Assembly (NCBI RefSeq): GCF_000186865.1 | Contig: NW_008705575.1 | Span: forward strand, 806,910-859,650 | Direction: 5' to 3' | Length of the DNA: 52,741 nt | Source of the DNA: Aureococcus anophagefferens | Lineage: Eukaryota; Sar; Pelagophyceae; Pelagomonadales; Pelagomonadaceae | In this document: positions 2,113 through 47,321 of the stretch, in pieces | How the letters are laid out: each line of letters opens with the position of its first letter | Numbering within the stretch: the first letter of the stretch is position 1 | The notes under the pieces: generated by a model | Seen by the model: only the letters and a program-made list of their open reading frames with translations | Database searches by the model: none | What the model was told of the DNA's origin: nothing | Program-made: the position numbers and the translations under genes

Positions 2113-5100
2113 CTACGCGTTGGTGACGTCGGCCATGGGCGTGGCGCCGTCGGGCACGCGCCACGTCGTCCCGTACTTCGTCAGCGCGAGCTTGAACGCC
2201 TCCGCGACGTAGCGCGGCCGCGGGTCCTCGGCGCCGACGCGCGCGAAGCCGCCGTCGGCGTCGAGGACGTCGAGGAACTTGACGCGCGCGACGGCGTGGA
2301 AGCAGAGGTGCTCCGGGCCCTTGCGCTTCTTGTCCGGGAGCGGCTCGCCGACGGCCTCGACGACGCAGCGGTTCGGCGCGGCGTCGACCGTCGACGCCTT
2401 GTCCCAGGCGACGTGGATGACCTGGCCCGCGGTCGGGAAGCGGGGCCCGTCGGGCGCCGCCGTCGGCGTCGACGCGGCCTCGGACGGCGCGGCCGACGCG
2501 GCCTCGGACGGCGCGGCCGACGCGACGGAGTCGCCGCCGGGCGTCGCGTCGGCCGCGGCCGCGGGCGGCCGCTTCTTCTTCGCCTTCGCCTCCGACGGCT
2601 CGCCCGCGTCGTCCTGCTTCTTCTTCTTCTTCTTCTTCTTTGTCGTCGGCGCGCCGCCGTCGCCGCCGTCGCAGACGTCGCCCTCGGCCGCGGCGGCCTC
2701 GGCGAGCGCGCGCGCGCTCTCGAGGTCCTCGGCCTTCTGCTTGGCCTCGAGCTCCTCGATCTCCTTCTGGCGCGCCGTGTCCTGCTGGATCAAGTCCCAG
2801 TCCTGGTACATGCCCATGACGAAGGACACCTGGGGCTGGCCCCGGAGCGCGCGCCGCAGCACCTCGTCCTGCACCGTCGAGAGGTCCGCGTGGTGCGACC
2901 AGTTGTTGAGGTCCTCCTCCTTGGGCAGCGGGTAGAGCTGGCGCTTGAAGCCGTCGCCGTCCTCCGCCGGCGCGTCGCAGGGCGCGCAGACGACCGCGTC
3001 GGCGGCCGCGGCGGTCTCGTCCGCGGCGGCGTTCGCCGCGTAGAGCTGGGGCACGAGGCCCGGCCAGCCGTCCTCGACCTGGCGCACCATGAGCGCCGCG
3101 GCGGTCAGCGTCGCGTGGCCCGCGTCGAAGAGCTTGCGGCAGCAGCGCTCGACGAGGCGCAGGTCTTTCAGGACCTGCTGGATCGTGCCGTAGCCGCGCG
3201 CGGCGAGCTTCGCTTTCACGGAGCCGAGGTCCATGTGGGGCTTGGCGTCGTTCCAGCGCTTCCGCTCGACGGCGCCGTGGAGCGACGCCTCGTCGGCGGA
3301 GACGGCGACGGGCGCCGCGAGCCGCGCGCGCGCGTCCGCGCGGCCGTCGCCCGCGAGCACCGCGTTCTCGAGGAACGCGAGGCACGCGTCGGCGGCGCCG
3401 TCGCTCAGCGCGTTCTTGCCGCCGGCCTTGGACGTGTCCTTGCGCGCCGCGGCCCGCCCCTTGCAGGCCTTGCACTGGAGCTCGTCGTGCAAATCCGACG
3501 CCGTCTTCGGCCGGAACAGGAAGAGCTTCTTCAGGTCGTCCGTGGCGAAGTGGTTCACCTGGGCCTTGTCCTCGATGACGTTCTGGAGCCCCTCCTTGGA
3601 GAGCTGGCGCTGGAGCATGCGCTCCTCGAGCGTGCCCGTGGACACGAAGCGGTACGTGTAGCACTGGTACTTTTGGCCGTCGCGCCAGCACCGCGCGGCC
3701 GCCTGCTTGTCCGTCGCCGGGTTCCAGTCGAGGTCGAACATGACCAGACGCGACCCGCCGATCAGGTTCAGGCCGCAGCCGCCGGCCTTGGACGACAGCA
3801 GGAACGCGAAGTAGCCCGAGCCGGGATCGTTGAAGTCGTCGTTGAACTGCTTCCGCTTCTTCGTCGACGTGTTGCCGCCGAGCTTGCAGGAGTGCCAGCC
3901 CTCCTGGGTGCACATGGCCTCGATGAGGTCCAGCGTCGTCATGAAGACGGAGACGACGACGATGCGCTCCTTGCCGCGCTTGTGCAGCTCCGCCATGAGC
4001 CGGTGGAGCACGAGCATCTTGCCGCTGAGCCCCGCGTCGACGGACCGCGAGAAGCAACTCAGCACGCGGCCGCCGCGGCCCCGCGGCATGTGGTCGTCCT
4101 CGGGCATGAGCGACCGCAGCTCCGCGGCCTCGCGCGCGTTCGCGGCCGAGCCGCCCTCGGGCTGCGCGACCAGGGCCGGGTGGTTGCAGATCTTCTGGAG
4201 GCGCTGGATGTAGCCGAGCGTGTCCTTGACGTGGCCCTCGACGGCGGCCTGCTCGTCGCGCTTCCGGATGACGTGGCGGTACATCTTCTCCTGCGTCGGC
4301 GTGAGCCGGCAGCAGACGACCTGCGTGAGCTTCGGCGGCAGGTGCTGCGCGTTGAGGCGGTTCATGCGGCGGATGATGAACATGTCGCTCAAAGCGCTCA
4401 GCTGGCGCTGGCGGTCCTGGCCCTTGCGCTTCGCCGCGTCGGACGCGTCGGGCTCGCGGCCCCGGAGGATCGGGCCCTCGTAGTGCTTCGTGAACTCCTC
4501 CTTCGTGCCGAAGATGCCCGGGTTCGTGAAGTTGGCCATGGAGAAGAACTCGACCAAATCGTTCTGCATGGGCGTGCCGCTCAGCAGCACGCGGCGCCGG
4601 CACGCGAGCGACGCGAGCGCCTGCGACGTCTGCGCGTCCTGGTTCTTGAGCCGGTGCGCCTCGTCGCAGATGATCAAATCCGCGGAGTCCTTCTTGCGCG
4701 CGAAGCGCTCGACCTGCATGCGGAAGGTCTCGTAGGACACGACGAGCACGTCGTAGTAGTTCGCGGGCGACAGGAACTGGTCGATCATGCCCTCGACGGT
4801 CTTCCGCGTCGTGTCCGCGAGCGCCATGCACTCGATGCGCTCGGCCTTGGTCTTCGCGCGGCAGTTGACCCACTTCTCGAACTCGTCCTGCCAGTTCTTG
4901 ACGAGCGAGCAGGGGCAGACGACGATGACGCGCTTCGCGATGCGCTTGCCGTCGCGGCCGAGCGACTTGAGGAGCGTGTAGAGCAGCGTGATCGACTGGA
5001 GCGTCTTGCCGAGGCCCATGTCGTCGGCGAGGATCGCGCCCTCGCCGCCGTAGTCCTTCATGCCGTAGACGCACTCGAAGACGAACTGCACGCCCTCGCG

Positions 5101-5958
5101 CTGGTGCGGCCGGAGCCACTGGCAGAGGATCGGCGGCACCTCGATGACCTCGGCGCCGGCCTCGACCTCGTCGTCCGTCGGCTCGTAGAGCACGAGGGGC
5201 TCGTGCTCGCGGTAGGCCTAGGTGACGATTGTTTGCCAGTCGGAAACTCTCAAACAGGGCAGCAAAAGAGAGCGAAATTCCCAACTTCAAAGGCTCATAT
5301 CTCGGCCATGAAGGGAGTGATATTCCCAACTTCAAAGGCTCCGATCTCGGCCATGTTCCACTCGTTTCGGCTGATTTTTGGACGAGCGATCATCTCTCGG
5401 AACGGTCTCGAAGCGTGGATGCTTTTTCCGGAACGCGCGCGCGCGGAACACTCACGTTGTAGCGACGTTGAATCACCCTTGTGCTGCCCAGCTCTCAAAG
5501 GGGACGCCGCGGCGCGCCGGCTCCTCCGCCTCCTCCTCCTCCTTCGCGGAGTCGTCCGTCGTGAACGAGAGGTCGAGCATGGGCGCGACGACCTGGCCCG
5601 CGGCGAAGTCGCGGCCGGAGAGGAACTTGGACTGGAGGCCCACGCCCTTGATGCGCTTGCGGCCCAAGGACTTTTGTTTGAGGAGCTCGTCCGCGCGCTT
5701 CGACCGCTTGCCGCCGATGCTCTTGAAGCCCTGGCGGACCGTCACGGCCGTCGTCGACAGGATGCCGGGCATGAAGGACCGGCGCACGACCTCGACGTCA
5801 CCGCCGCGCTCCGCGTCCTCGTTGTCGCGCTTGAAGTTCTCGACCTCGGGCGCGCGCGCCGCGACGGCCAGGCCGCACGCGCCGAGCCGCTTCGTGGGCG
5901 GCGGCGACTTGCCGCGGCTCGGCGCCGACGGCGCCTTGAGCATTTGAAACTTCTTCAT
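2113..5958 (-). CDS. RAD54: RAD54-family SNF2 DNA translocase, two exons
   Basis: The model is complement(2113..5217, 5506..5958), about 1185 aa. Exon 1 (ATG at 5958) encodes the basic N-terminal region, including VRRSF, as in RAD54. Exon 2 opens with EHEPLVLYEP, which matches the RAD54 DALVLYEP segment. It then has Walker A DDMGLGKT (about 216-223), DEAH box ICDEAHRLKN, SGTPMQND, and helicase C motifs SSKAGGCGLNLIG and WRDGQK. Family role: it remodels Rad51-DNA filaments during homologous recombination in the nucleus. The exon 2 frame has a stop just upstream, so it must be spliced. Donor GTCCCC at 5505 and acceptor TAG ending at 5218 join in frame (phase 0). This 288-bp intron holds an antisense introner. 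The C-terminus is unusually long, with a bromodomain-like segment (near 3230-3060) and a lysine run encoded by a CTT microsatellite. Confidence 0.9.
5255..5491 (+). mobile_element. Family 1 introner, antisense inside the RAD54 intron
   Basis: A 237-bp element begins CAGGGCAGCAAAAGAG and ends TGTGCTGCCCAG, so its termini are inverted repeats. It is flanked by a perfect 8-bp duplication CTCTCAAA (5247-5254 and 5492-5499). The interior matches the family 1 copies at 35.8, 45.5, 46.2 and 46.6 kb, including TCGGCTGATTTTTGGACG. Its spliceable AG end lies on the plus strand whereas RAD54 is on the minus strand. It therefore sits antisense, and the TSD supplies no GT. An internal 45-bp tandem duplication (5278 onward) makes it longer than its relatives. 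Confidence 0.85.
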
Positions 5959-6251
5959 CGTGTGGGTCGCAACGCGGGAACTATCGAGGGAGTTGTCAGG
6001 CCCTCGGCGGCGAGCTTGCGGGGCGCGTCGTTCGCGAGGCGCAGCAGTTTGCGTAGAAGAGTGATGTTGCGGCGCGCGCGTCGATGAAGTGGGTGACGTC
6101 GAGGGCGTGCGGCGACAGCGCGCAGGGCGTAAGGTTGTCGACCAGGAACGATCTGCTGAGCAGCACCGAGACAGCAACATCGACGTCGCGCGATGGACCC
6201 GGCGCTCGGCGCGCGCACACCCGCGGCGAGAAGTGCGCGCTCGCACCCTCG

Positions 6252-8243
6252 ATGGGCTCGATGGGCGTGTCGGAGGCCTCCGAGGTCGAGTCCTTTGACT
6301 CCGACTCCGACGCTGCGTCGGTGAGCGCCGAGGTGCCCGCGTGCGCGTCTGCCGTGGAGCGTTCGGCGCCCGGCGCGACGACGTCGGCGAGCGCCGGACA
6401 GCGGCCCGGCGCCGCCGCGACGAGCGACGAGACCGTCGCGGGCCACGGCAAGCAGCAGTCCTCGCGATTCTACGGAATCTATTGGGAAAAGGGTCGATGG
6501 CGGGTGACATATTTCGACGAGCACGGCAAAAGCAGATATATCGGGGTCTTCCTTGACGAGGAAGTGGCGGCGCGGGCCTACAACGCCAAGATCGCCGAGC
6601 TCCGGCTGGGCCATTGCCGCGCGACGAACGCCGAGGTCGACGGCGTCCTGCAGCCGAAGCCGCAGACGTCGTCGCAATACCGCGGCGTCTACTGGGACAA
6701 GACCAAGGGCCTTTGGAAGGTCCAACTAACAGAAAGCGAGGTGGGCTTGAAGGGTCATACCCTCGGCTGCTACGACGAAGAAATCTCGGCGGCGAAAGCC
6801 TACGACCGCTTCCTTCGCGAGGCCATGCCGTCGTCGTTCGCCGCCAAGGCGAACTTTCCGGGTATCGACCCGCCGAGCGAGGCGGTCATCCGCGATTACG
6901 ACGCCATGTCTGCGCCGGCTAAGGTCGCCAAAGCCATGCGCGTCGTCGCGTCCCTGCGGGACTCGGCGAAGCGCGTCCGAGAGTCGAACCGACGCTCGCG
7001 GACTTCGAAAAAGCAGCGCGTCTCCAAAGGCGCCGCCGGCGCCGCGCCCGCCGGCGCCGCGCCCGCCGCGCCGCCGCGGCGGCCCTCGGGCCGGTCGCGC
7101 AAGCAGATCTCCTACGCCGAGGGCGACGACGACGACGACGCGTCCGACGCGTCCGCCGACGACGGCTCCAACGACGTCTCCAAAGACGCCGCCGGCTCCG
7201 CGCCCGCCGGCGCCGCGCCCGCCGGCGCCGCGCCCGCCGGCGCCGCCGACGGCGCCGAAGTCAACGACTTCCACTGCGGCGCGTGCGCCCTCCGGGACAC
7301 GCCGCTCATGATCCAGTGCGAGGCCTGCGACAGCTGGTTCCACTTCGGTTGCGTGGACCTCACCTCCGAGACGGTCCCAGACGGTGCCTTTTTCTGCGGC
7401 CGCTGCGCCGCCGCGCGCGCCGAGGAGGCCTCGGCCTCCGCCGCGCTCGTCGCGCTCGCCGTCCCGACGCTGGACGCGCCGGCCGCGCCTCACGTGCTGG
7501 ACGCGGACCATCGGCTCGTCGCCAAGCTCGGCGGCTTTTTTAGCAACGCCGCGAGCGCCCCCGTCGAGAAGCGAAAACGTGACGACGCTCTGCGAGGCCT
7601 GAAAAAGGTCCCCGACCTGCACCGCGACCTCACGCTGGTGCTCACGAGCCAGAACCAGCACTACCGGTCCCTCCGGGTCTGCTTCCAGTCGTCCGTCGTC
7701 GACGTCGTCTTCCGCCTGCTGGCCTTTACGCTGACCGACGAGTTCTTCGAGGAGGACAACAAAGTCGCGTGCGCGATGGCGTGGCTCGCGGAACTCGTCG
7801 AGACGGTCCACGACCCGAAGACGAGGCGGTTCCTCACGGCCAAAAGAGACATCATCTGCCGCATCGTCGGACGCCTCGGAAACCGGCTTCTCGACTGCGG
7901 CTTCACGGTCCAGGAGGCCCGGCGCGAGGTGGTTGCCACCAATCGGTCTCGGTCGCACGCGGAGATGAAGGCCATGGTTTTCGGGCTCTTCTTCTTCTGC
8001 GTCCGTTACTATCACGAGCCGGACCGACCGTTCGAGATGATCATGCTCATTAGCCGAGTTCCGTGCTCGCACGCCTGCGCGGCCGGCGACGCGCGGGGCT
8101 GCGATCGCTTCCTCAAGGCGATTCGCGCGACTCCCCTCAAAATCGCGGCCTCCCAGGCGCCGCGCAGCGTGCGCCCCGCGGGCGTGTGGCCCGGCGGCTC
8201 CTTCGACGGCGTTTTCGCGTGGATCAGTAAACTCCGCGCTTGA
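6252..8243 (+). CDS. Nuclear regulator with two AP2 domains and a PHD finger
   Basis: The frame is open from 6084, but the ATG at 6252 starts a typical acidic N-terminus and is preferred (663 aa). Two AP2/ERF-like DNA-binding domains follow: RFYGIYWEKGRWRV (about 70-118) and QYRGVYWDKTKGLWKV (about 140-190), each with the Gly-Tyr/Val-Trp core and a terminal A..AY. A low-complexity linker of Ala-Gly-Ala-Ala-Pro repeats and acidic stretches leads to a PHD finger (about 340-388) with the Cys4-His-Cys3 pattern: C..C, C..C, WFHFGC and FCGRC. PHD fingers usually read histone tails. The final 270 residues are helical and were not recognised. It is divergent from RAD54 across about 290 bp. The start is uncertain and an upstream exon is possible. 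Confidence 0.8.
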   Translation: MGSMGVSEASEVESFDSDSDAASVSAEVPACASAVERSAPGATTSASAGQRPGAAATSDETVAGHGKQQSSRFYGIYWEKGRWRVTYFDEHGKSRYIGVFLDEEVAARAYNAKIAELRLGHCRATNAEVDGVLQPKPQTSSQYRGVYWDKTKGLWKVQLTESEVGLKGHTLGCYDEEISAAKAYDRFLREAMPSSFAAKANFPGIDPPSEAVIRDYDAMSAPAKVAKAMRVVASLRDSAKRVRESNRRSRTSKKQRVSKGAAGAAPAGAAPAAPPRRPSGRSRKQISYAEGDDDDDASDASADDGSNDVSKDAAGSAPAGAAPAGAAPAGAADGAEVNDFHCGACALRDTPLMIQCEACDSWFHFGCVDLTSETVPDGAFFCGRCAAARAEEASASAALVALAVPTLDAPAAPHVLDADHRLVAKLGGFFSNAASAPVEKRKRDDALRGLKKVPDLHRDLTLVLTSQNQHYRSLRVCFQSSVVDVVFRLLAFTLTDEFFEEDNKVACAMAWLAELVETVHDPKTRRFLTAKRDIICRIVGRLGNRLLDCGFTVQEARREVVATNRSRSHAEMKAMVFGLFFFCVRYYHEPDRPFEMIMLISRVPCSHACAAGDARGCDRFLKAIRATPLKIAASQAPRSVRPAGVWPGGSFDGVFAWISKLRA

Positions 8244-8302
8244 TTCGCCTTCCGAGTCGGCCATGGCGAGCGGTCGCCGCGCGCGCGCGGGCGCTAGGCG
8301 AT

Positions 8303-9229
8303 TTAGAAGCACGATGTCACGACCGTCGCGCGCTGGTCGGGGCACGCGCCGGGGAACGCGAAATAGATGGCGAGGATGGCGTCGTCCCAGACAGTGGTGT
8401 TGGGGAGCGCGTGGAAGAGGCCGTTGCACCCCATCATGGGGCCTTCGTCCGGAGGGATGCCGTGGCAGCACTTGCGGCTCACCATGATGTCCACGCGGGA
8501 CAGCGGGTTCTCGATCTTGTCCAGGACCCACGCCTTGATCTCCGCATGCCAGGTTCTTTGCGAAGTCAGCAGCGCGCGGGGAAGGCGCGCGAGGCCAGCG
8601 ACCAGATGGTACGCGCCGTCGAAGTGAGACTCGATGGTCTCAATCGCTCGCTCGTGGTACACGTTGGTGAAGAGTTTCTTGAACTTGCGCTCGACGTCGG
8701 CGCGGGAGCACGGCTTTCCGGCGAATAAGATGGCCGCGTCGAAGATTACATGGCAGACTTCGTGCATCCAGTCTCCCTACGCGTACGCGTCCACGGGTTA
8801 AATCCACACGGGGAGAAAGAGCGGCGGGCGCACCTCTTCTGAGTCCGCGTAGATGCCCGACGACGTCACGGCGATCGTCACTTTCTGCTCCTCCAAGTCC
8901 GCGCTCCCCGCGCCCGCGGCGCGGCATCGCGCGGCCGCTGCCGCTTTATATTCCTTGACCGATTTCTGTTGTCGCCATATCTCGAGCAACAGTTTTGCGT
9001 ACTTCCCCGTCGGCGCGGACCCCCCCGCGAGGTCGGCAAACCCCCCAGGTTGTTTGAGTCGGTCTTCGATTGCAGCTTTGGTATGATTGTATATATAGCG
9101 CAGGAAGTTATCGTCGTCGTGCGGCCCGAGAAGGTCTGTGCCGTCGTTGGCCGGATTCAACGCGACTCCAGCGAGCGAAACGAGGGTGCCGAGGCGCAAC
9201 GAGTCTGGCATTTGGTCGCGAGGCGGCAC
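8303..9229 (-). CDS. Unrecognised gene, two reading-frame segments
   Basis: Two minus-strand frames abut. Segment 8798-9229 (143 aa, ATG at 9229) ends in a stop. Segment 8303-8767 (154 aa) has its own ATG. A 33-bp sequence (8777-8809) with GT and AG ends would join them in frame, removing the stop and reading FLPGDWMHEVCHV, but 33 bp is very short for an intron. Two separate genes are the alternative. The downstream segment has HEVCH, which fits the HExxH zinc-protease pattern but could be coincidental. Base composition is less GC-biased than in neighbouring genes. No family is recognised. It converges on the AP2/PHD gene with 59 bp between stops. Confidence 0.45.
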
Positions 9230-9851
9230 AGCTCGAGCGGTCGCCGATTGCCTCTCTCAAAGGCTAACTCGGCGACCCGTCCGGGGAGTTGTCCGGGGCT
9301 CGTCCTAGTCGGCGACTCCTGCGCCGTCCGCGAAGCACGCCGGACGTATAGGCCGTCCGTGGAAGTCGCCCGACGTGCGTGGGCCACGCGCGCGGCGGAG
9401 CCTTGCTGCAACCGGCGACGTCGAGACCGTCGTCGACGAGTCCATCGACGAGTCTGGTCGGCCCAGTCGGATCCACGCGCGCCTGGGCGATCCTCTCCGA
9501 GCTCTTGCCCGCTGCCGCTCATCCACAACGCACGCCCAGCGGCCGCGTCATCGACGACCACCGTGACGTCGGCGATGCTTGGTGCTTGCCGTCGCGATCT
9601 TTGAAGAATCTCGATTCTGATTCTTTGGCAGCGCATTCTAGTGGACAGCCGTCGTTTGCATCGCGCATCGCAGCGTCTGCGCACTGGACACCGCCGCTTG
9701 CAGCGGGATCCTTCCTCAAGTCGACCCCGAAGACGCTCAAGCGGGGCAGCCTCGCGACTTCAGCTCGAGAGTGGTTCTGAGAGAAGCCGCGCAGCGGGGC
9801 AGCCTCTCACCGCCACCCACCACCCAGCCCCCCACAACGCAGGCACCGAAG
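9230..9851. other. Intergenic region, no gene recognised
   Basis: No supported coding frame is seen. The right part (from about 9591) is the start of duplication unit A and is repeated near 13433. It includes the shared stretch TCTAGTGGACAGCCGTCG. Unit A carries about 75 extra bases here relative to unit B, containing a second GCGGGGCAGCCTC motif. This probably includes the promoter and 5' UTR of the gene at 9852. Confidence 0.5.
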
Positions 9852-10465
9852 ATGATCCGCAAGCTCCTCTGCCTCTCCCTGCTCCTCGGCGCGTCGGCCC
9901 TGGCCACGCCGAAGCGCGCCGCGACGCCGCGGCTCCGCGCGGCCGTCGAGGTCCGCGGCGGCGCGCTCATCCCCAAGGAGGGCTTCGTCAAGGCCTGCGC
10001 GTGGGTCTACGGCATCTACGGGATCCAGTTCACGCCAGCGTCGAGCGACAGGAGTGTTTTTTTGCGTGAATTTCGCCTGAAGATGTGAAGACATCCGACC
10101 CGTCGCACTTGGTAGGTTCACGCTGATGACGAAGAAGTTCATCGAGGACCACTTCCAAGGGCCCGCGGACCCGCTCGCGATCTTCATGGCGCGCGGCGCG
10201 GGCGTCTCGATCATGTGGATGGCCTGGTCCCTCACGAAGCTGCCGCTGGAGACGGTCTTCCTGCGCGACGCCGCGTCCCGCGCGATTCCGCGCGTCACGC
10301 GCGACGCGTCGCAGGCCCCTCGTCGTCTACAACGTGCTCACCGGCCTCGTCTACCCCTGGAACGCCGCGTACATCTCCAAGCTCCCCGTCAAGTACCCGA
10401 TGCACTACGTGCCGGAGGCCCTGATGGCCGGCTTCTCCGTCGCCGGCATCCTCGCCGCCATGTAG
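9852..10465 (+). CDS. Small membrane protein with N-terminal leader (copy A)
   Basis: The model is join(9852..10027, 10116..10274, 10315..10465), 161 aa. Exon 1 encodes a hydrophobic leader, MIRKLLCLSLLLGASALA, followed by a basic stretch, consistent with an ER signal or bipartite plastid leader. Intron 1 (10028-10115) is a family 3 introner, and its removal gives YGIQFTLMTKKF. Exon 2 has a membrane-like segment around VSIMWMAWSL. Exon 3 encodes VYNVLTGLVYPWNAAY and ends GFSVAGILAAM. The second intron (10275-10314, 40 bp, GT...CAG) is inferred because the reading frame changes there. The family is not recognised. An almost identical paralogue lies at 13627-14240. Confidence 0.65.
10036..10115 (+). 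mobile_element. Family 3 introner (80 bp) forming an intron
   Basis: The element runs from CAGCGTCGAGCGACAGGAGTG-like sequence to CACTTGGTAG. It is flanked by a perfect 8-bp TSD, GTTCACGC (10028-10035 and 10116-10123). The left TSD provides the GT donor and the element provides the terminal AG, so splicing removes 10028-10115 (88 bp) and restores the frame. The same element occurs at 13811-13890 and, on the minus strand, at 33101-33181. Confidence 0.85.
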
Positions 10466-10485
10466 GTCGACGCCCGAACTTGAAC

Positions 10486-11196
10486 TTAAGACCCCGCGGG
10501 CATGCGCTTCAGCACGAAGAGGCCGCCGCGCGAGCCCCGCGAGAGCCGGAGGTCGCCGTCGACGTACGTCGTCACGATCTCGCCCCGGGGCCGCGGCAGC
10601 GGGAGCGTGACGACGTCGTTGACGTCGAAGCCCTCGAAGGTGATGGCCAGCCGGTCCGCGTCGTCCGTCGCCTCCGCGGAGCCGAAGACGCGGAGCTTGA
10701 GGGTCTGGCCGAGCGCCGTGATGCGCACGCGATTGTCGACGACGCGCGCGGTCACGTCGACGACCTGCTCGTTCGCGACCTTGAGCGGGCCGTCGCGGTC
10801 GCGCGAGTCGCCGCCGGCGAGGAAGGGCGCGACCTTGAAGAGCAGGCCGTAGATGCGGTTCGAGATCTCCTGCGGCAGGTCGCTCAGCAGCGCGGAGCCG
10901 GGCCGGGGCGACGCCGTCTGCGTCGAGTAGACCAAGGCCCAGCGGCCGCTCACGTCGCCCGTGCGCACGTCCGCCTCCTCGACGCGCGCGGCTCGCCGCA
11001 GGATCTCCGCCTCGCCGGCGCGCCTGCCGATGGAGGTCAGCAGGTCCTGCTTCAGCGCGTCGACCACGGCGGTCGCGGCGGCGCGCCGCGGCGGCGCGCG
11101 GAGCGGGTGGCCGCCGCGCGGGCCGACGAAGGCGGTCGTGCCGCACGCCAAGCACAGCGCGGCGACCATGGCGCGCGCGCGGTTGAGAGTGCTCAT
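10486..11196 (-). CDS. PAP/fibrillin plastid lipid-associated protein (copy A)
   Basis: The protein is about 236 aa from the ATG at 11196. The frame is open further upstream, but this start gives a clean leader, MSTLNRARAMVAALCLACG followed by TTAFVGP, which matches the signal peptide plus Phe cleavage motif of secondary-plastid proteins. The mature part has PAP/fibrillin features: ALKQDLLTSIGRRAG, then VSGRWALVYSTQT (about 95-107), and the C-terminal signature TYVDGDLRLSRG followed by GLFVLKR. Fibrillins are lipid-binding proteins of plastoglobules and thylakoids. It is convergent with the small membrane gene, with stops 20 bp apart. The paralogue is at 14255-14965. Confidence 0.85.
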   Translation of the reverse strand: MSTLNRARAMVAALCLACGTTAFVGPRGGHPLRAPPRRAAATAVVDALKQDLLTSIGRRAGEAEILRRAARVEEADVRTGDVSGRWALVYSTQTASPRPGSALLSDLPQEISNRIYGLLFKVAPFLAGGDSRDRDGPLKVANEQVVDVTARVVDNRVRITALGQTLKLRVFGSAEATDDADRLAITFEGFDVNDVVTLPLPRPRGEIVTTYVDGDLRLSRGSRGGLFVLKRMPAGS

Positions 11197-34055: not shown

Positions 34056-37000
34056 TTACGACACGTCGCGCATCTCGCCGAGCGCGCTGAGCGTCGAGTC
34101 GAGGAGGTGGAGCTCCGTGGTGAGGTCGCCCTCGCGGTCGCCCGCGGCCGGGTCGACCTCCTCGTCGGCGTGCGTCGCCGTCTCGTGGGCCGCGGTCTCG
34201 AGCCGGACGCGGCGCTGGAGGAGCTTGAGGCTGCGGAGGTCGCTCTGGACGACGTCGTACTGGACGAGGCCCGGCGTCGTGCCGCCGTGGCGGTGGCGCC
34301 GCGGCGTCTCCGCGGCCTTGCCGTAGCCCGCGACGGCGACGCGCTCGCGCTCGTCGCGGCCGGCGCCGCGCGTCTCGAGCGCGACGGCGCGCGGGCCGCG
34401 GCGGAGCTCCTCCTCGAGGCGCGCGTCGCGCGACGACGCGAGGCCGGACACGCGCTGGTCGTCGGACCGCTGCGCGAGGCCCGACGTCGCGCCGGCGACC
34501 GTGGCGCCGCGGATCATGTCCACGAGGTCGACCTTCTCCTGGCGCAACAGCTCCGCGAGCCGCGCGATGCGCCGCGCGTCGCGCTCCGCCTCGCGGACGC
34601 GGCGCCGCGAGTTCGCCACGAGCTCGTGCGTGACGTGCCAGCGGCGGAAGCCCGACGGGTGCGACGTGATGCGGCTGTGCAGGCCGAGCTCGTAGGCCGG
34701 CAGGCCCTGGCGCACGACGATGTCGTCGGCCGCGCGCGCCGCGGCCGCGCGCGGCGGCGGCGGCGCGGGCGACGCCGGGCCCGCGGCCTCGGCGGCCTCC
34801 TCCGCGGCGCCGGCGTCGTCCTCCGCCTCCGACGGCCCCCGGTCGCGCCCGTCGGCGCGCTCGTCGTTGCCGAGCCAGGCCCGGGCGAGCGGCGCGGCCT
34901 CCGTGCGGTCCGCGGCCGCGGCGAGCTCCGTCGAATCCTGGGAGTCGGACCGCGCGTTCGAGTCGCGGCGCGCCCGCGGCGCGTCCCGCGGCGCCTCGCC
35001 GCCGAGCCAGAGCCGGTCGTCGGGCCCGCGGCGCGCCGCGTCGGGCGGCCGCGGCGCCGCGTCCGATTTCGCGAGCACGGCCATGAGCGGCCGCACGCCG
35101 CCCGCGTCGCGGATGCGCATGCGCGCGACGAGGTCCGACGACGCGATGGTGCGCAGCGTCTCGGCGAGGTCGTGGGCCGCGGCGAAGCCCTCGCCCTCCG
35201 CGCGGACCATGTCCTGGAGCAGGTCGACGATGGTCTGGATGACGCTCCGGTCCGCGTCGATCGCGTCCTTCAGCTGCGCCTTGAGCTGGGCCTGGTCGAA
35301 GCGGTTCGCCGACGAGCCGCCCTTGACGTCGCCCGGCGGCCGCTCCCAGTCCGGCCCCTCCGGCGGCTCCGGCGCCTCCTCGGACGCCTCGGAGCGCACG
35401 GGGCTCGGCGACCGGCTCGCGGAGCGGTCGCGCCGGTTCGGCGCGGGCGACGGGCTGCGGCCGCGGCACCGGCCCGGGTCGCCGACGAGGGCGACCAGCG
35501 CGCCGGCGGCCTGGACCGCCGCCTGGGGCCGCTCGCGGCCCCGGCTCAGCATGGACACGAGCCGCGGGACCGCCGACGTCCGCGCGAGCTCGCCGCGCAG
35601 CGACCCCTCCACGGGCGCCTCGTCGGCCACGGGCGGCGGCGCCTCGACGCAGTCCTCCTCCGACGCCTCCTCGACCGTGTCCAGCGGCGTCTTCGCCGCG
35701 CCGCCCTGGTCGCCCGCGCGGACGAGCGCGCGGAGCGTCAGCGCCGCGCCCGCCTGGGCAGGACGAGAGAGATTCAACGTCGCTTCAACGTGAGTGTTCC
35801 GCGCGCGCGCGTCACGGTAAAAAACATCCACGCTTCGAGACCGTTCCGAGAGATGATCGCTCGTCCAAAAATCAGCCGAAACGAGTGGGAACCGGCCGAG
35901 AAAGGAGCCTTTGAAGTTGGGAATTTCGCTCTCTTGTCCTGCCCTGGCGCCCGCCTGGCCCCACTCGTCGCGGTCCGCGAGCAGGTCGACGACGGCGTCG
36001 ACGCCGCCGGCGTCGCGCAGCGCCTGGAGCCGCGGCAGGACGTCGTCGCCGTTGTGGGACAGCGCGTCCTCGTCGACGTCCGCGTCCACGAGATTCCGCA
36101 TCGCCGCCATCGCGGCCAGGTTCCGCCGCCGCCGGTTGAAGTCGCCGTCGTCGCCCTCGTCGTCGTCGGCGACGTCGTCGTCGACGCGGGGCGGCTCGAA
36201 ACCGTTCTCGCGGCCGTCGTTGTCGGCCTGGATGACGTTGACGACGGCCGTCGCGGCCGCGTCCCTACCTTCCCGGCCCAGGCCCACGAGCGCGTCGTTC
36301 GCCTCGCGCGCGGCCCAGACCTCGCGCCGGTCGATGGGCTGGCCCACGCTGCAGCCCAGGCGGTGGAGCACGGCCTCCTCGTCGGGCGGCAAAGCTTGCG
36401 TCGCGGCGTCCACGATCGATTTCACGACGCCCGGCCGCGCGGAGATCGCCGCGCGCGCCGACGCCGAATTCAGCTCGTCGTCGAGCATGAGCTTGAAGAC
36501 GGACACGGCCTCGGCCGCGTCGACCTCGGGCCGGCTCCAGCCGACGCGCTCGTCGGCGACGTCGAGCAGCCGCGGGAGCAGCTCGGGCTCCTGGAAGATC
36601 TTCGCGCGCGCCTCCTCGGAGTTGTGCACGAGCTCCGACATGGTCCCCAACGCCGACGTGCGCACGTTCTCCGACGGGTGCTCCAGCAGGCCCAGGATGG
36701 GCTGGACGATGTCCGCCTCCTCCATGATGAGGCGGTTCACGCGGTCGTCCTTGTCGTCGCCGCCGGACGCGCCGTCGCTCGCCGCGAAGGACGCGTCCTC
36801 GGGCTTCTCGACGCGCGGCGCCTCGCGGACCTGCTCCCGGTCGTCCGCAACGTCCAACACGTCGGGCACGAAGATCTCGTGGTCGTTGGCGTCGTCGCGC
36901 GCCGTCGACGAGATGACGTTGCGGAGCACGTCCGCGGCCGCGCGCTGCGTCTCCGCGTTGTTCGTCGACGACAGCAGGTCCACGAGGGGCGCGACGCCGC

Positions 37001-39896: not shown

Positions 39897-41257
39897 TTAC
39901 CACCAGGGCCAGATGCGGCCCTCGGCCTCCGGCGACGCGGCGGTCTTGAGCTGGGGCACCTTGTCCGCCGTCGCGCGCATCTTCGCGACGCTCTCCCAGT
40001 GGCCCTCGAGCGCCGCCGCGCGCGCGGCCGCGTCGTCGTGGTGCTCCGCGAGGCAGTCGGCCATGTGCTGGGCGTGCTTGAGCTTGCCCGCGGCGGACCG
40101 CAGCGCCGACAGGGCGCTCTTCTGGCCCCGCTGGGCCTTGGTCGCGGCGCGCCGCTTCGCCGCGTCGTCGTAGAGCCAGAGCGTGAAGCAGTAGCGCGGC
40201 GCCGTCGACGGCCTGTGTGGAAATCAACCAGTGAGCTGGGACGTCGGGGCCAAACTTGAGAATTCTCTAGCTCGGTCAAATCGAAGTCGATTCGGCTGAT
40301 TTTTGGACGGATCGATTGCTCTCGTCGAGTTCTCGAAGCACAGCGAAAGAGTCTGGTCCAAATCGTTCGATTACGCTCACATTGAAGTCGGGTTGAATAT
40401 TTGATTTCCACACAGTCGACGGCTTCGTCGCGTGGAGCATCGCGTGCGCGGAGAAGAGCACGAGGCGCCCGGCGACGGGCGGGAAGGCCGCGGGCGGCTC
40501 GGGCACGGGCAGCAGGCGCAGCTCGCCGCCGTGGGCCGGCGCCCAGGCCTCGTTGAGGTAGAAGAGCGCGGAGATCTCGCGCGCGTCGAGCCCCGGCGAC
40601 GAGTCGCAGTGGTAGTCGAAGGCGCCGCGGACGCCGTCGTTGACCTGGAGCCGCATCTCCTGCTTCTCCAGATCCGGCAGCAGGGGCGCCAGCGCGCGGA
40701 TCAGCGTCCGGTCGCGGTAGAGCTCGAGGAAGAGCGGCGCGTGTTGCTGCACGTCCGGGTGGTACGGCTCGGCCTCCCAGATGCCGCGCTTCACCGTCGT
40801 CCCGTCCAACGTGATGGCGCCGCCGTCGTTCGTCGCCGCCGCGATGGTCCGGTGGAGCGCCGCGCGGTCGTCGGCGCCCGACTCGCCGCCGCCGACGTTG
40901 TAGGACCGGTTGCTCCGCATGACGTTCGCCGCCCGCATGGCCTCGAGCTCGGCCTTGAGCGCCCGGCACAGGTCCGGGGGCAGCACGCCATCGACGCAGC
41001 AGTGGCCGTGGACCTTGAGCGTGGCGCAGGTCTCCGCCGTGACGAGCGTCGACAGGTTCTCTAAACCCCGCCGGAGCCGGCCGTCGCGCGGCGGCGGGCC
41101 GTCCCAGGCGCCTTTGACGCAGGCCGTGGGCCGGAGCGCCTTCTGCGCGAGCCAGGCGCCGTGGATCTGGGACACCATGTCCGCGGGGTTGCCCAGGAGC
41201 GCGTCGACGGGCGCCTCGGCCGCCCTGGGCTTCTCGGGCGACCGCTCGGGCTCGCGC

Positions 41258-45086: not shown

Positions 45087-47105
45087 TTACGTGAGGTAGT
45101 ACCACGCGGCGACCGCGACCGCGACCGCGGCGAGAGGCACGAGGTAGCCCGTCGTCGACGCGGCCGCCTCGGCCGCGAGCTCGGCCTTCTTCGCGTCCGA
45201 CGGCGCCTTGCGCGCGCGCGGCGGCGCGGCGACGCGCGGCGCCTCGAGGGGCTCCGCGGCCGCGGGCGCGCCGTAGATGGCCGCGAGCTCCGGCGATCCG
45301 GCGAACAGATCCGCGAGCGACACCTCCACGGCGCCGCCGCCGCAGGACGCGGGCACGGCGTCCTCGGGCACGCCGTCGGCGAGCATCTGCGCCCGCGCGA
45401 AGTCGCGGTCCGTGCCCAGGATGCGCACCTTCATCGCCGTCGTCGGGTGGAGCCACGACTTGACCTGGAACGGGGTGATTCAACGTCGCTTCAACGTGGG
45501 TGCTCCGCGCGTCGAGGGATGATCGCTCGTCCAAAGATCAGTCGAAACGAGTGGAAGACGGCCGAGCCTTTGAAGTTGGGAACGTCGCGCGCTGTTCCCG
45601 CCCTGGACTCGACGACGGTCCAGATCACGCGGAGGTAGCCCGGCGCGTTGACGACCTGTGTGGAAATCAACCAGTGAGCTGGGACGTCGGGGCCAAACTT
45701 CAGAATTCTAGCTCGGTCAAATCGAAGTCGATTCGGCTGATTTTTGGACGAATCGATTGCTCTCAGCGAGTCCTCGAAGCACGGCGGAAGTACTCGTGTC
45801 AAAACATTCGAATACGCGCACATTGAAGTCGGGTTGAAGATTTGATTTGCACACAGTTGACGACGTAGGTGCGCCAGGCGACCTCCGGGTAGACGTCCTC
45901 GAGCGTCTTCATGATGACCTTGAAGCGGCTCCGCACGCGCGACGTGACCATGCGCAAACGCACGCGGTCCATGTCGACGATCAGGACCTGCTTGAGCACC
46001 GTGACGTCCGAGTTGTGGCGGCGCGTCGCGAGGTGCTTGAGGGCGATGAACGCCTCCGTGCAGACCGTGCGCCCCTTCAGGAGGTCCTCGGGGTCCTCGT
46101 CGGCCAAATTGACGCGCGCGAGCGTCTCGTGGACCGTTTCGGTGATGACCTGGGCAGGAACAAGGGTGATTCAACGTCGCTTCAACGTGAGTGTTCCGCG
46201 CGCGCGCGCTCCGTGAAAAGCATCCACGCTTCGAGGCCGTTCCGAGAGATGATCGCTTGTCCAAAGATCAGCCAAAACGAGTGGGAACCGGTCGAGATAC
46301 GAGCCTTTGAAGTTGGGCATGTCGCACACTTTTCCTGCCCGGGTGATCACCGGGTGGCCGTAGGCGTCGTAGCCGCAGAACTTCATGTTGTCCCAGAAGT
46401 TGAGCAGCCGCGCGCAGTCCGCGCGCGCGCCGGGCTCGTCGTTCGCGAGCTCGTCCAGGCCGAAGCGCCTCCGGAAGGCCTCGAACTTCTCCAGCGACGC
46501 GACCATCTCGGTCACGCGGTCCGGGTACCTGGGCAGGAAAAGGGTGATTCAAGTTCTCTTCAACATGAGTGTTCCGCGCGCGCGCGTTCCGGAAAAAGCA
46601 TCCATGCTTCGAGACCGTTCCGAGAGATGATCGCTCGTCCAAAAGTCAGCCGAAACGAGTGGAAAACGGCCGAGATCGGAGCCTTTGAAGTTGGGAATTT
46701 CGCTCTCTTTTCCTGCCCTGCCGGGTACGTCCAGTAGCCCCTGAGCGTGCGCCGCAGGCCGTGGTAGGACCGGTGCGACTCCGCCAGGTCCAGCGCCGCC
46801 GGCGTGAGCTGGGCCCGCACGGCGTTGGCGTCGTCGAGCTCGTAGTCGAGGATCGGGTCCGACTCCGCGGGCTCCTCGGCGCCGAGCGGCGGCGGCGGCC
46901 GGAACGCGCGCCGCGCGAGCGCCTCGTCGATGAAAGCGCCGCCGCGGAAGGTCATGTAGGGCGTGTCGCCGCGCGGGGGGTCGCCCTCGGCCTTGGCGTC
47001 CTCGCCCGGCGGCGGCTCGTCGCGCAGGGACAGCAGGGGCGCCGGCTCCTTGCCCGGTGGCTGCTTCGACGCCACGACCTGCGGCTTGCTCCCGCACTTG
47101 CCCAT
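45087..47105 (-). CDS. SEC14-like CRAL-TRIO lipid-transfer protein, five exons
   Basis: The model is complement(45087..45464, 45614..45655, 45865..46149, 46351..46528, 46729..47105), 419 aa. All four introns are introners and every junction keeps the frame. The start MGKCGSK fits an N-myristoylation site. A CRAL-TRIO N-terminal helical part (EKFEAFRRRFG) is followed by the lipid-binding core: VLIVDMDRV, then TLEDVYPEVAWRTYVVNAPG, YLRVIWTVVKSWLHPTTAMK and VRILG. This is the order seen in SEC14 proteins (YPE, NAP, F..W..VK..L...T..KI). The C-terminus ends in a hydrophobic segment (PLAAVAVAVAAWYYL), a possible tail anchor, so the protein may be held to membranes at both ends. It probably transfers phosphoinositides or other lipids. 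Confidence 0.85.
45465..45605 (-). mobile_element. Family 1 introner, short diverged copy (SEC14 intron 4)
   Basis: This 141-bp copy lacks part of the family 1 interior and has degenerate ends (plus strand CTGGAACGGGGTGATT and TTCCCGCCCTG). The TSD is GACTTGAC at 45457-45464 and GACTCGAC at 45606-45613, 7 of 8. In sense, the donor GTCGAGTC comes from the TSD and the acceptor is CGTTCCAG. The intron is 45465-45613 (149 bp). Confidence 0.85.
45656..45856 (-). mobile_element. Family 2 introner (SEC14 intron 3)
   Basis: This 201-bp element has ends CTGTGTGGAAATCAA and TTGATTTGCACACAG, with one mismatch between the inverted repeats. The perfect 8-bp TSD is TTGACGAC (45648-45655 and 45857-45864). 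In sense, the TSD GTCGTCAA supplies the donor and CACACAG the acceptor. Splicing restores TYVVNAPG exactly. Intron 45656-45864. Confidence 0.92.
46150..46342 (-). mobile_element. Family 1 introner (SEC14 intron 2)
   Basis: This 193-bp element has plus-strand ends CTGGGCAGGAACAAGG and CTTTTCCTGCCCGG. The TSD is GTGATGAC at 46142-46149 and GTGATCAC at 46343-46350, 7 of 8. The sense donor GTGATCAC comes from the TSD and the acceptor CTGCCCAG from the element. Splicing gives GHPVITETV in frame. Intron 46150-46350. Confidence 0.9.
46529..46720 (-). mobile_element. Family 1 introner (SEC14 intron 1)
   Basis: This 192-bp element has ends CTGGGCAGGAAAAGG and CTTTTCCTGCCCTG and a perfect 8-bp TSD, CCGGGTAC (46521-46528 and 46721-46728). 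In sense, the donor GTACCCGG comes from the TSD and the acceptor CTGCCCAG from the element. Splicing gives YWTYPDRV with a split codon. Intron 46529-46728 (200 bp). Confidence 0.93.
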
Positions 47106-47273
47106 GGTCGACGGCGCCGCGCGGTCGCGACCTTCGAGAAGCGTCCGAGGTCGGCCACGCACGATTTCAGGGAGCCCGCCTCCGCACGTCCACCACCATC
47201 ACAACTACGTGATGAGAGGTCGGCCTACAGAGAGTCAACGAGATTAACGTTGCCGAGATACATTTTAAACACC

Positions 47274-47321
47274 ATGGCCACTCAGATAAACACCATGGCC
47301 ATTCAGATGGAAACTTTCTAA
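47274..47321 (+). promoter_or_regulatory. Short upstream ORF before the beta-propeller gene
   Basis: A 15-codon ORF (ATG at 47274, TAA ending 47321) finishes 6 bases before the main ATG at 47328. It lies in a 21-bp tandem repeat (47267-47287 and 47288-47308) that creates two in-frame ATGs. If transcribed, it could reduce translation of the main frame. Confidence 0.35.

Follow-up and report, generated by a model that had tools for sequence, protein, structure and literature searches.

Introner-like introns of different ages in a SEC14-type gene of Aureococcus anophagefferens

The origin of introns is an old question, and the genome of Aureococcus anophagefferens, with an estimated several thousand insertions, offers a natural experiment on it. 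In a stretch of 52,741 nucleotides from this genome (hereafter the window), a gene of the CRAL-TRIO (SEC14) type on the minus strand (45087..47105) is interrupted four times, each time by a repeat element. The question raised by this locus is whether these elements are themselves the introns of the gene and, if so, what allowed them to become introns. Once four stretches of 149-209 bp each are removed, a frame of five predicted exons and 419 amino acids is open, with its ATG at 47105 and its stop at 45087-45089. In addition to the spliced frame, the assignment of the gene is based on a PF00650 (CRAL-TRIO) domain at residues 177-337 (E 4e-17; 62.9 bits against a gathering score of 22.6) and on PDB matches that include human SEC14-like 4 (4tlg) and SEC14-like 2 (14 distinct sequences, E 0.001). 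The protein begins with MGKCGS (47105-47088), which we take to be a myristoylation-like start, and a hydrophobic stretch is found just before the stop (45146-45090); the protein is possibly anchored in the membrane at both ends.

Each predicted intron is made of one element and one copy (the right-hand one) of an 8-bp duplication. On the minus strand, intron 1 (46529..46728; 200 bp, phase 2) consists of a family-1 element at 46529-46720 and the duplication copy at 46721-46728; intron 2 (46150..46350; 201 bp, phase 0) of a family-1 element at 46150-46342 and the copy at 46343-46350; intron 3 (45656..45864; 209 bp, phase 0) of a family-2 element at 45656-45856 and the copy at 45857-45864; and intron 4 (45465..45613; 149 bp, phase 0) of an internally deleted family-1 element at 45465-45605 and the copy at 45606-45613. 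All four start with a GT inside the duplication and end with an AG that is the element's final two bases, and each would add an in-frame stop if left unspliced. The original prediction, made from the letters alone, had placed the four element starts at exactly these positions and had claimed that removal of an element plus one duplication restores the SEC14 frame at every junction, including one split codon, and that all introns of the coding region are of this origin. These points held: the open frame runs through all junctions, the split codon is Thr126 (phase 2), and the ends of every intron in the coding region coincide with an element end and the duplication (4/4), as expected of transposon-derived introners. 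The remaining junctions (185/186, 280/281 and 294/295) lie inside the conserved SEC14 core and are gap-free in the alignment with human SEC14-like 4 (4tlg); for the first, which is near a gap in the alignment with a paralog (L087), the reading frame is the one line of support. The 8-bp duplications claimed around all four elements are indeed present, but they are exact only for the elements at 45656 (8/8, TTGACGAC) and 46529 (8/8, CCGGGTAC, which reads GTACCCGG on the minus strand), whereas those at 45465 (GACTTGAC/GACTCGAC) and 46150 (GTGATGAC/GTGATCAC) agree at 7/8 positions.

The four introns had also been described as all recent, which proved to be wrong for two of them. When age was gauged by how far each element diverges from a consensus built on its 12 nearest fetched copies, the elements of intron 1 (0.5%, the youngest of the four) and intron 3 (1.5%) are young, whereas that of intron 2 (8.3%; best other genome copy 93% among the copies scored) is old and that of intron 4 (11.3% plus 51 gap columns) is the oldest and is eroded. 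The imperfect duplications coincide with the two old insertions. Since these ages differ, the intron set would have accumulated over time, and on these divergences the introns were acquired not in a single burst but successively, forming at least two age layers.

The feature originally singled out, a complete replacement of the gene's intron set, was not borne out, as no earlier introns were seen. A protein search of the same genome gave 15 matches, comprising the four of the gene's own exons and 11 other places, and four paralogs among the latter were examined (L048, L087, L088 and L154). Three of them are intronless there: no intron was present across junctions 185, 280 and 294 in L048 and L087, or across junctions 280 and 294 in L088. 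The fourth (L154, G000:C1:1281300-1282900) bears one family-2 introner of its own elsewhere, near residue 251, which is not an intron position of the window gene. This element has an exact duplication (GTTGATGC) and lies in the orientation opposite to that of the family-2 copy in the window SEC14 gene; when it is removed together with one duplication, the protein alignment covers residues 163-349, compared with residues 251-349 in the unspliced sequence. This test of orientation rests on homology and is independent of the codon model used below. Because the introners of the two genes are at different places, the two SEC14 paralogs would have gained separately located introners, and the pair fits the use of family 2 as an intron in both orientations. 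Gain into uninterrupted coding sequence would fit the locus better than replacement of older introns.

With regard to their anatomy, the elements are ~200 bp long and have terminal inverted repeats of ~12-15 bp. The youngest family-1 element has the ends CAGGGCAGGAAA...TTTCCTGCCCAG, and family 2 has the ends CTGTGTG...CACACAG, with an AG available at both ends. Genome similarity searches with three family-1 queries and one family-2 query gave 1039, 2063, 1929 and 1720 first-look candidates, respectively. Forty candidates per query were scored, and among these, the query aside, identity was 96-98% for family 2 and 96-99% for the youngest family-1 copy. Terminal inverted repeats and a duplication of fixed length characterize these sequences as MITEs, that is, cut-and-paste elements; they are also near-identical introns in many genes, whose ends are those of the element plus its duplication and which take one splice site each from element and target, as introners do. 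Duplications of 8 bp are a trait of the hAT superfamily, whose target consensus is nTnnnnAn. In our copies, T was found at target position 2 in 19/41 family-1 and 9/43 family-2 copies, a count confounded by selection for GT, and A at position 7 in 14/41 and 8/43, respectively. A search of the same genome for the hAT dimerisation domain (PF05699) gave no match, and control genomes gave none either. A longer family-2 pair (C1:2651791-2652535), considered as a candidate autonomous element, turned out to consist of two distinct family-2 copies, and no autonomous element was found through this pair and the PF05699 search.

The introners of A. anophagefferens, the subject of work by Huff, Zilberman and Roy in 2016, are said to be non-autonomous transposons with terminal inverted repeats and duplications, in which the element reportedly carries one splice site and acquires the other from the gene's own duplicated bases, and they reportedly account for hundreds to thousands of introns. 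The elements of the SEC14 gene equal them in terminal inverted repeats, duplications, and one carried and one co-opted site. A length near 210 bp is given as characteristic of A. anophagefferens introners in PMC9481584. Introners with target-site duplications and terminal inverted repeats have also been reported from other eukaryotes, with families in which up to 50% of the 5' sites are GC (Gozashti et al., 2022; PMC9860276), and the original prediction was right in treating introners with such duplications as already established. Thus, the SEC14 gene is, by its sequence features, a vivid example of an established kind and not a new phenomenon. Differences between systems should also be noted. 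In an Aureococcus sp. example from a Tara MAG (family 4) in PMC9860276, both splice sites are carried and the transcript gains 12 bp, whereas splicing here would restore the exact length. The Amoebophrya introners (Farhat et al., 2021; PMC7789003) are likewise repeated introns with inverted and short direct repeats, but they have non-canonical splice motifs and direct repeats of 3-5 nt, in contrast with GT/GC-AG and 8 bp here.

The relationship between the elements and splice sites was then assessed across many copies. The fetched copies were the best matches to the SEC14-gene elements. L009-L128 and the window together contained 143 element matches (L001-L008 were the same places fetched again or the window itself and were left out). 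Of these, 137 were accepted on the basis of coverage over 85% and a duplication with at most two mismatches, and six were dropped; under this rule the duplication was exact in 111 copies and had one mismatch in 24 and two in 2. The coding strand was assigned by a codon model trained on the window, and thus partly on the SEC14 gene itself. Both flanks were coding, on the same strand and in the same frame after removal, for 102 copies; the flanks conflicted in 2, one flank was coding in 27 and none in 6. The duplication began with GC or GT (GY) on the coding strand in 100/102 copies, compared with 20.0% in the background (p 3e-67), whereas the opposite side, which serves as an internal control, was at background (23/102 versus 21.7%; p 0.46). 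AG was found at the coding-strand end in 100/102, the same two copies missing both tests, and GY was on the coding side in 26/27 copies of the one-flank class. The GT/GC strand and the AG end therefore match the gene strand almost without exception. In all three misfits (L078, L109 and L127:248), a G precedes the duplication and the end is AGG; reread after the fact with a duplication of 9 bp, they fit as GC..AG, GT..AG and GC..AG, respectively. If unspliced, 99 of the 102 coding copies break the frame or meet a stop.

GC and GT accounted for 75 and 60 of the 135 GY starts sampled, respectively, and GT was over-represented relative to its background share of 21.8% (p 6e-9). Retention can be estimated from such data: by hand calculation, it was ~2.9 times higher for GT than for GC, and near zero for other starts. 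Beyond G-Y, no clear splice-site consensus was observed in the duplication at 90 sites, and the results suggest that a 5' splice site here may need little more. In a sample of 20 stretches at preset round positions, drawn from 16 contigs and totalling 60 kb (of which 54.65 kb could be read), six copies were placed, and the five with a perfect duplication obeyed the GY/AG rule. The copy L148 obeys the rule with a weakly scoring left flank, and the sixth, L145, is a degenerate family-2 copy with no GY and unclear ends.

Counts of element ends across the genome showed a similar picture. GY was present 8 bases outside 1186 of the 1250 family-1 ends of the CAG pattern, that is, the end not bearing the AG, and 8 bases before 441 of the 1578 AG-bearing family-1 ends of the CTG pattern (27.9%, slightly above the 20-22% background). 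For family-2 ends the figure was 672/1120 (60.0%), which by hand calculation is about what would be expected if one side always had GY and the other were at background. Reversed-pattern controls for the three end patterns gave 11, 17 and 1. Among 32 family-2 pairs, picked by eye from the first 100 lines of two listings, GY was found at the minus end only in 13, at the plus end only in 8, at both ends in 10 (versus ~7 expected) and at neither in 1. The pair with none (C1:2855254-2855456) has weakly scoring flanks on both strands; a 9-bp reading of its duplication (AGGTAGGGC) would give GC on the minus strand.

On the basis of these results, we consider it very probable that the four introns of the SEC14 gene are introners, that is, non-autonomous cut-and-paste elements that are kept in exons only if spliced and that take their 5' site from the duplicated target. 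A DNA transposon of ~200 bp with no gene of its own would insert and duplicate 8 bp (9 bp in a few copies), and an insertion in an exon would be retained only if it were spliced out. The element end would provide a pyrimidine-rich stretch and the AG, and where the first two duplicated bases happen to be GT or GC in the sense of the gene, they would become the 5' splice site; as this site lies within the duplication, splicing would restore the original coding sequence exactly. Anatomy, frame continuity, the association of strand and letter, abundance and relative ages are read directly from the DNA, and from them we infer that the spliceosome removes the elements and that loss of unspliceable insertions, not target choice, explains GT/GC.

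Target choice would instead make the splice site a by-product of a transposase that prefers sites starting with GC or GT, and the GY beside the family-1 non-AG end (1186/1250) is what such a preference could produce. We consider this very improbable, because GY tracks the coding strand and not the element, with family-2 copies showing it on either side, and because GT is enriched over GC when the flanks are taken as reference, as splicing would predict; the presence of GY on the coding side with the non-coding side at background (23/102 versus 21.7%) would also point to survival by splicing rather than to target choice. As the case for splicing is made from sequence, one could also regard the SEC14 gene as a pseudogene with four unspliced insertions. 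However, once spliced, the gene has an intact frame of 419 amino acids with an ATG start, a stop codon and a SEC14 domain above the gathering score; after insertions as old as two of these, the frame would have been free to decay; and each of the four introns follows GT-AG in the direction of the gene. These features make a pseudogene highly improbable. Finally, transposons often sit in introns and two of the four elements are diverged, as would be the case if they had inserted later into ordinary ancestral introns. An origin of this kind appears extremely improbable: the intron ends are duplication plus element end in 4/4 cases with zero residual intron, the three intronless paralogs have none at the junctions covered, and the same exact fit is seen in 100/102 coding copies.

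Letter 2 of the terminal repeat is unequal between the two ends in 82 of 83 family-1 copies (3/86 were left out for coverage), compared with 1 to 12 of 83 for the other eleven end positions. The letters neighbouring letter 2 are mostly equal within each element, and T at the intron 5' end is very rare. According to the proposed mechanism, letter 2 would set the spliceable strand, C-T-G at an end being CAG when read outward; family 2 has this letter at both ends and would be usable in either orientation, and family 1 has it at one end only. Among family-2 copies with GY on one side only, the coding strand agreed in 19/19 forward and 8/8 reverse copies with both flanks coding, and in 7/7 and 5/5 with one flank coding. 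At L152 (G000:C1:2651300-2653000), where three family-2 matches lie within 1.1 kb, removal of two oppositely oriented copies gives one continuous frame, in which the third exon scores weakly; L028 and L044 are arranged in the same way, with the support for one copy of each pair coming from a single flank. Thus, one element family appears to work as an intron in either direction. In the family-2 tree, the used orientation was little clustered (12 changes; shuffled mean 13.6, with a value as low in 96/500 shuffles), which is the pattern expected if elements insert both ways round.

Family 1 occurs in two polarities. All seven copies with reversed letters had GY and coding sequence on the reverse side (four by both flanks and three by one). 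The polarities were 75:7 among the fetched copies, which are a biased set, and 2 and 2 among the four full copies of the preset sample. In the family-1 tree, the two polarities are scattered and require 5 changes (shuffled mean 6.8, 5/500 shuffles as low), of which 2 were forced by well supported branches, most forks being weak. The two families had been presented as distinct, which is true of their termini; their interiors align in opposite orientation. Family 1 and family 2 aligned with a score of 90.8 in reverse, where 131/167 aligned positions were equal, and with 42.1 when both were read the same way; 300 shuffles averaged 26 and reached 58 at most. For other copy pairs, the reverse alignments scored 88-99 and the direct ones 46-75, and the family-2 profile matched family-1 copies on the opposite strand with E down to 2.7e-11. 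By these alignments, the interiors are homologous but inverted. Because a polarity change by substitution needs two changes, an interior flip between near-identical ends would be the simpler route, and the opposite orientation of the interiors of the two families would fit the same process. We therefore propose, tentatively and with nearly as much confidence as doubt, that polarity may be determined by a single terminal-repeat position, that family 2 may be bidirectional and turn about twice the share of exon insertions into introns that a one-ended element does, and that family 1 may have acquired its two polarities by such flips. The search method of Gozashti et al. allowed for copies in opposite orientation, so orientation freedom was at least foreseen (PMC9860276). 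No statement of an end-letter rule was found in the accessible portions of PMC9860276, PMC7789003, PMC9481584 and PMC12768974, which represent part of the literature.

The effect of letter 2 on RNA structure was also considered. In family 1, the A of the AG was mostly unpaired in the predicted folds, with mean pairing of 0.13 (75 copies) and 0.26 (8 copies); for the single copy that has T at letter 2, the value was 0.98. The notion that letter 2 frees the AG fails as a general explanation, since in family-2 copies with T at letter 2 this A is paired (0.95 in 28 and 0.93 in 14).

The window contains three further copies. A family-2 introner (40213..40423, minus strand; duplication GCCGTCGA on minus) and a family-1 introner (35754..35954, minus strand; duplication GCGGGCGC on minus) both have GC-AG ends and coding flanks on the minus strand in the same frame. 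A family-1 copy on the plus strand (5247..5499, element 5255-5491; duplication CTCTCAAA) has GC/GT on neither side, and its polarity is antisense to minus-strand coding sequence on both sides; this copy looks non-intronic. It also contains an internal direct duplication (a 20-bp repeat 45 bp apart).

With 7 elements in the 52.7-kb window and 7 in the preset sample (one cut by an edge), the joint density was 14 elements in 107.4 kb, which suggests ~6,400 elements genome-wide (95% range 3,500-10,700), or 4,700 without the four of the SEC14 gene. At this density, the probability of at least four elements in a 2.0-kb gene is 1.6e-4, equivalent to 1.9 of the 11,520 genes of A. anophagefferens (gene number from PMC9481584), and the expectation drops to 0.6 if the SEC14 gene is excluded. 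Four introners in one gene are a tail case at the measured density (~0.6-1.9 genes expected) and not a new kind of phenomenon. Among 117 fetched loci of 1.3-1.4 kb with a passing element, 104 had one element, 12 had two and 1 had three. In viral contigs, three 17-mer introner matches were found, none of which was matched by either family profile, and these contigs contained no match to a family-2 26-mer and no relative of the SEC14 protein.

A scan of the window for any terminal inverted repeat with a duplication gave 51 matches; of ten Markov controls, nine gave 1-4 each and one gave 636. As most of the matches look like tandem or GC-rich repeats, only family matches were used. Other repeats are also present in the window. 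At 141-799, the scan brought out blocks that have CGAGCGCG and adjoining sequence in common and recur at intervals of 126 and 147 bp. A 21-bp unit (TAAACACCATGGCCACTCAGA) occurs in two tandem copies that are 95% alike (47266-47307), in the interval that separates the SEC14 gene from the following open frame.
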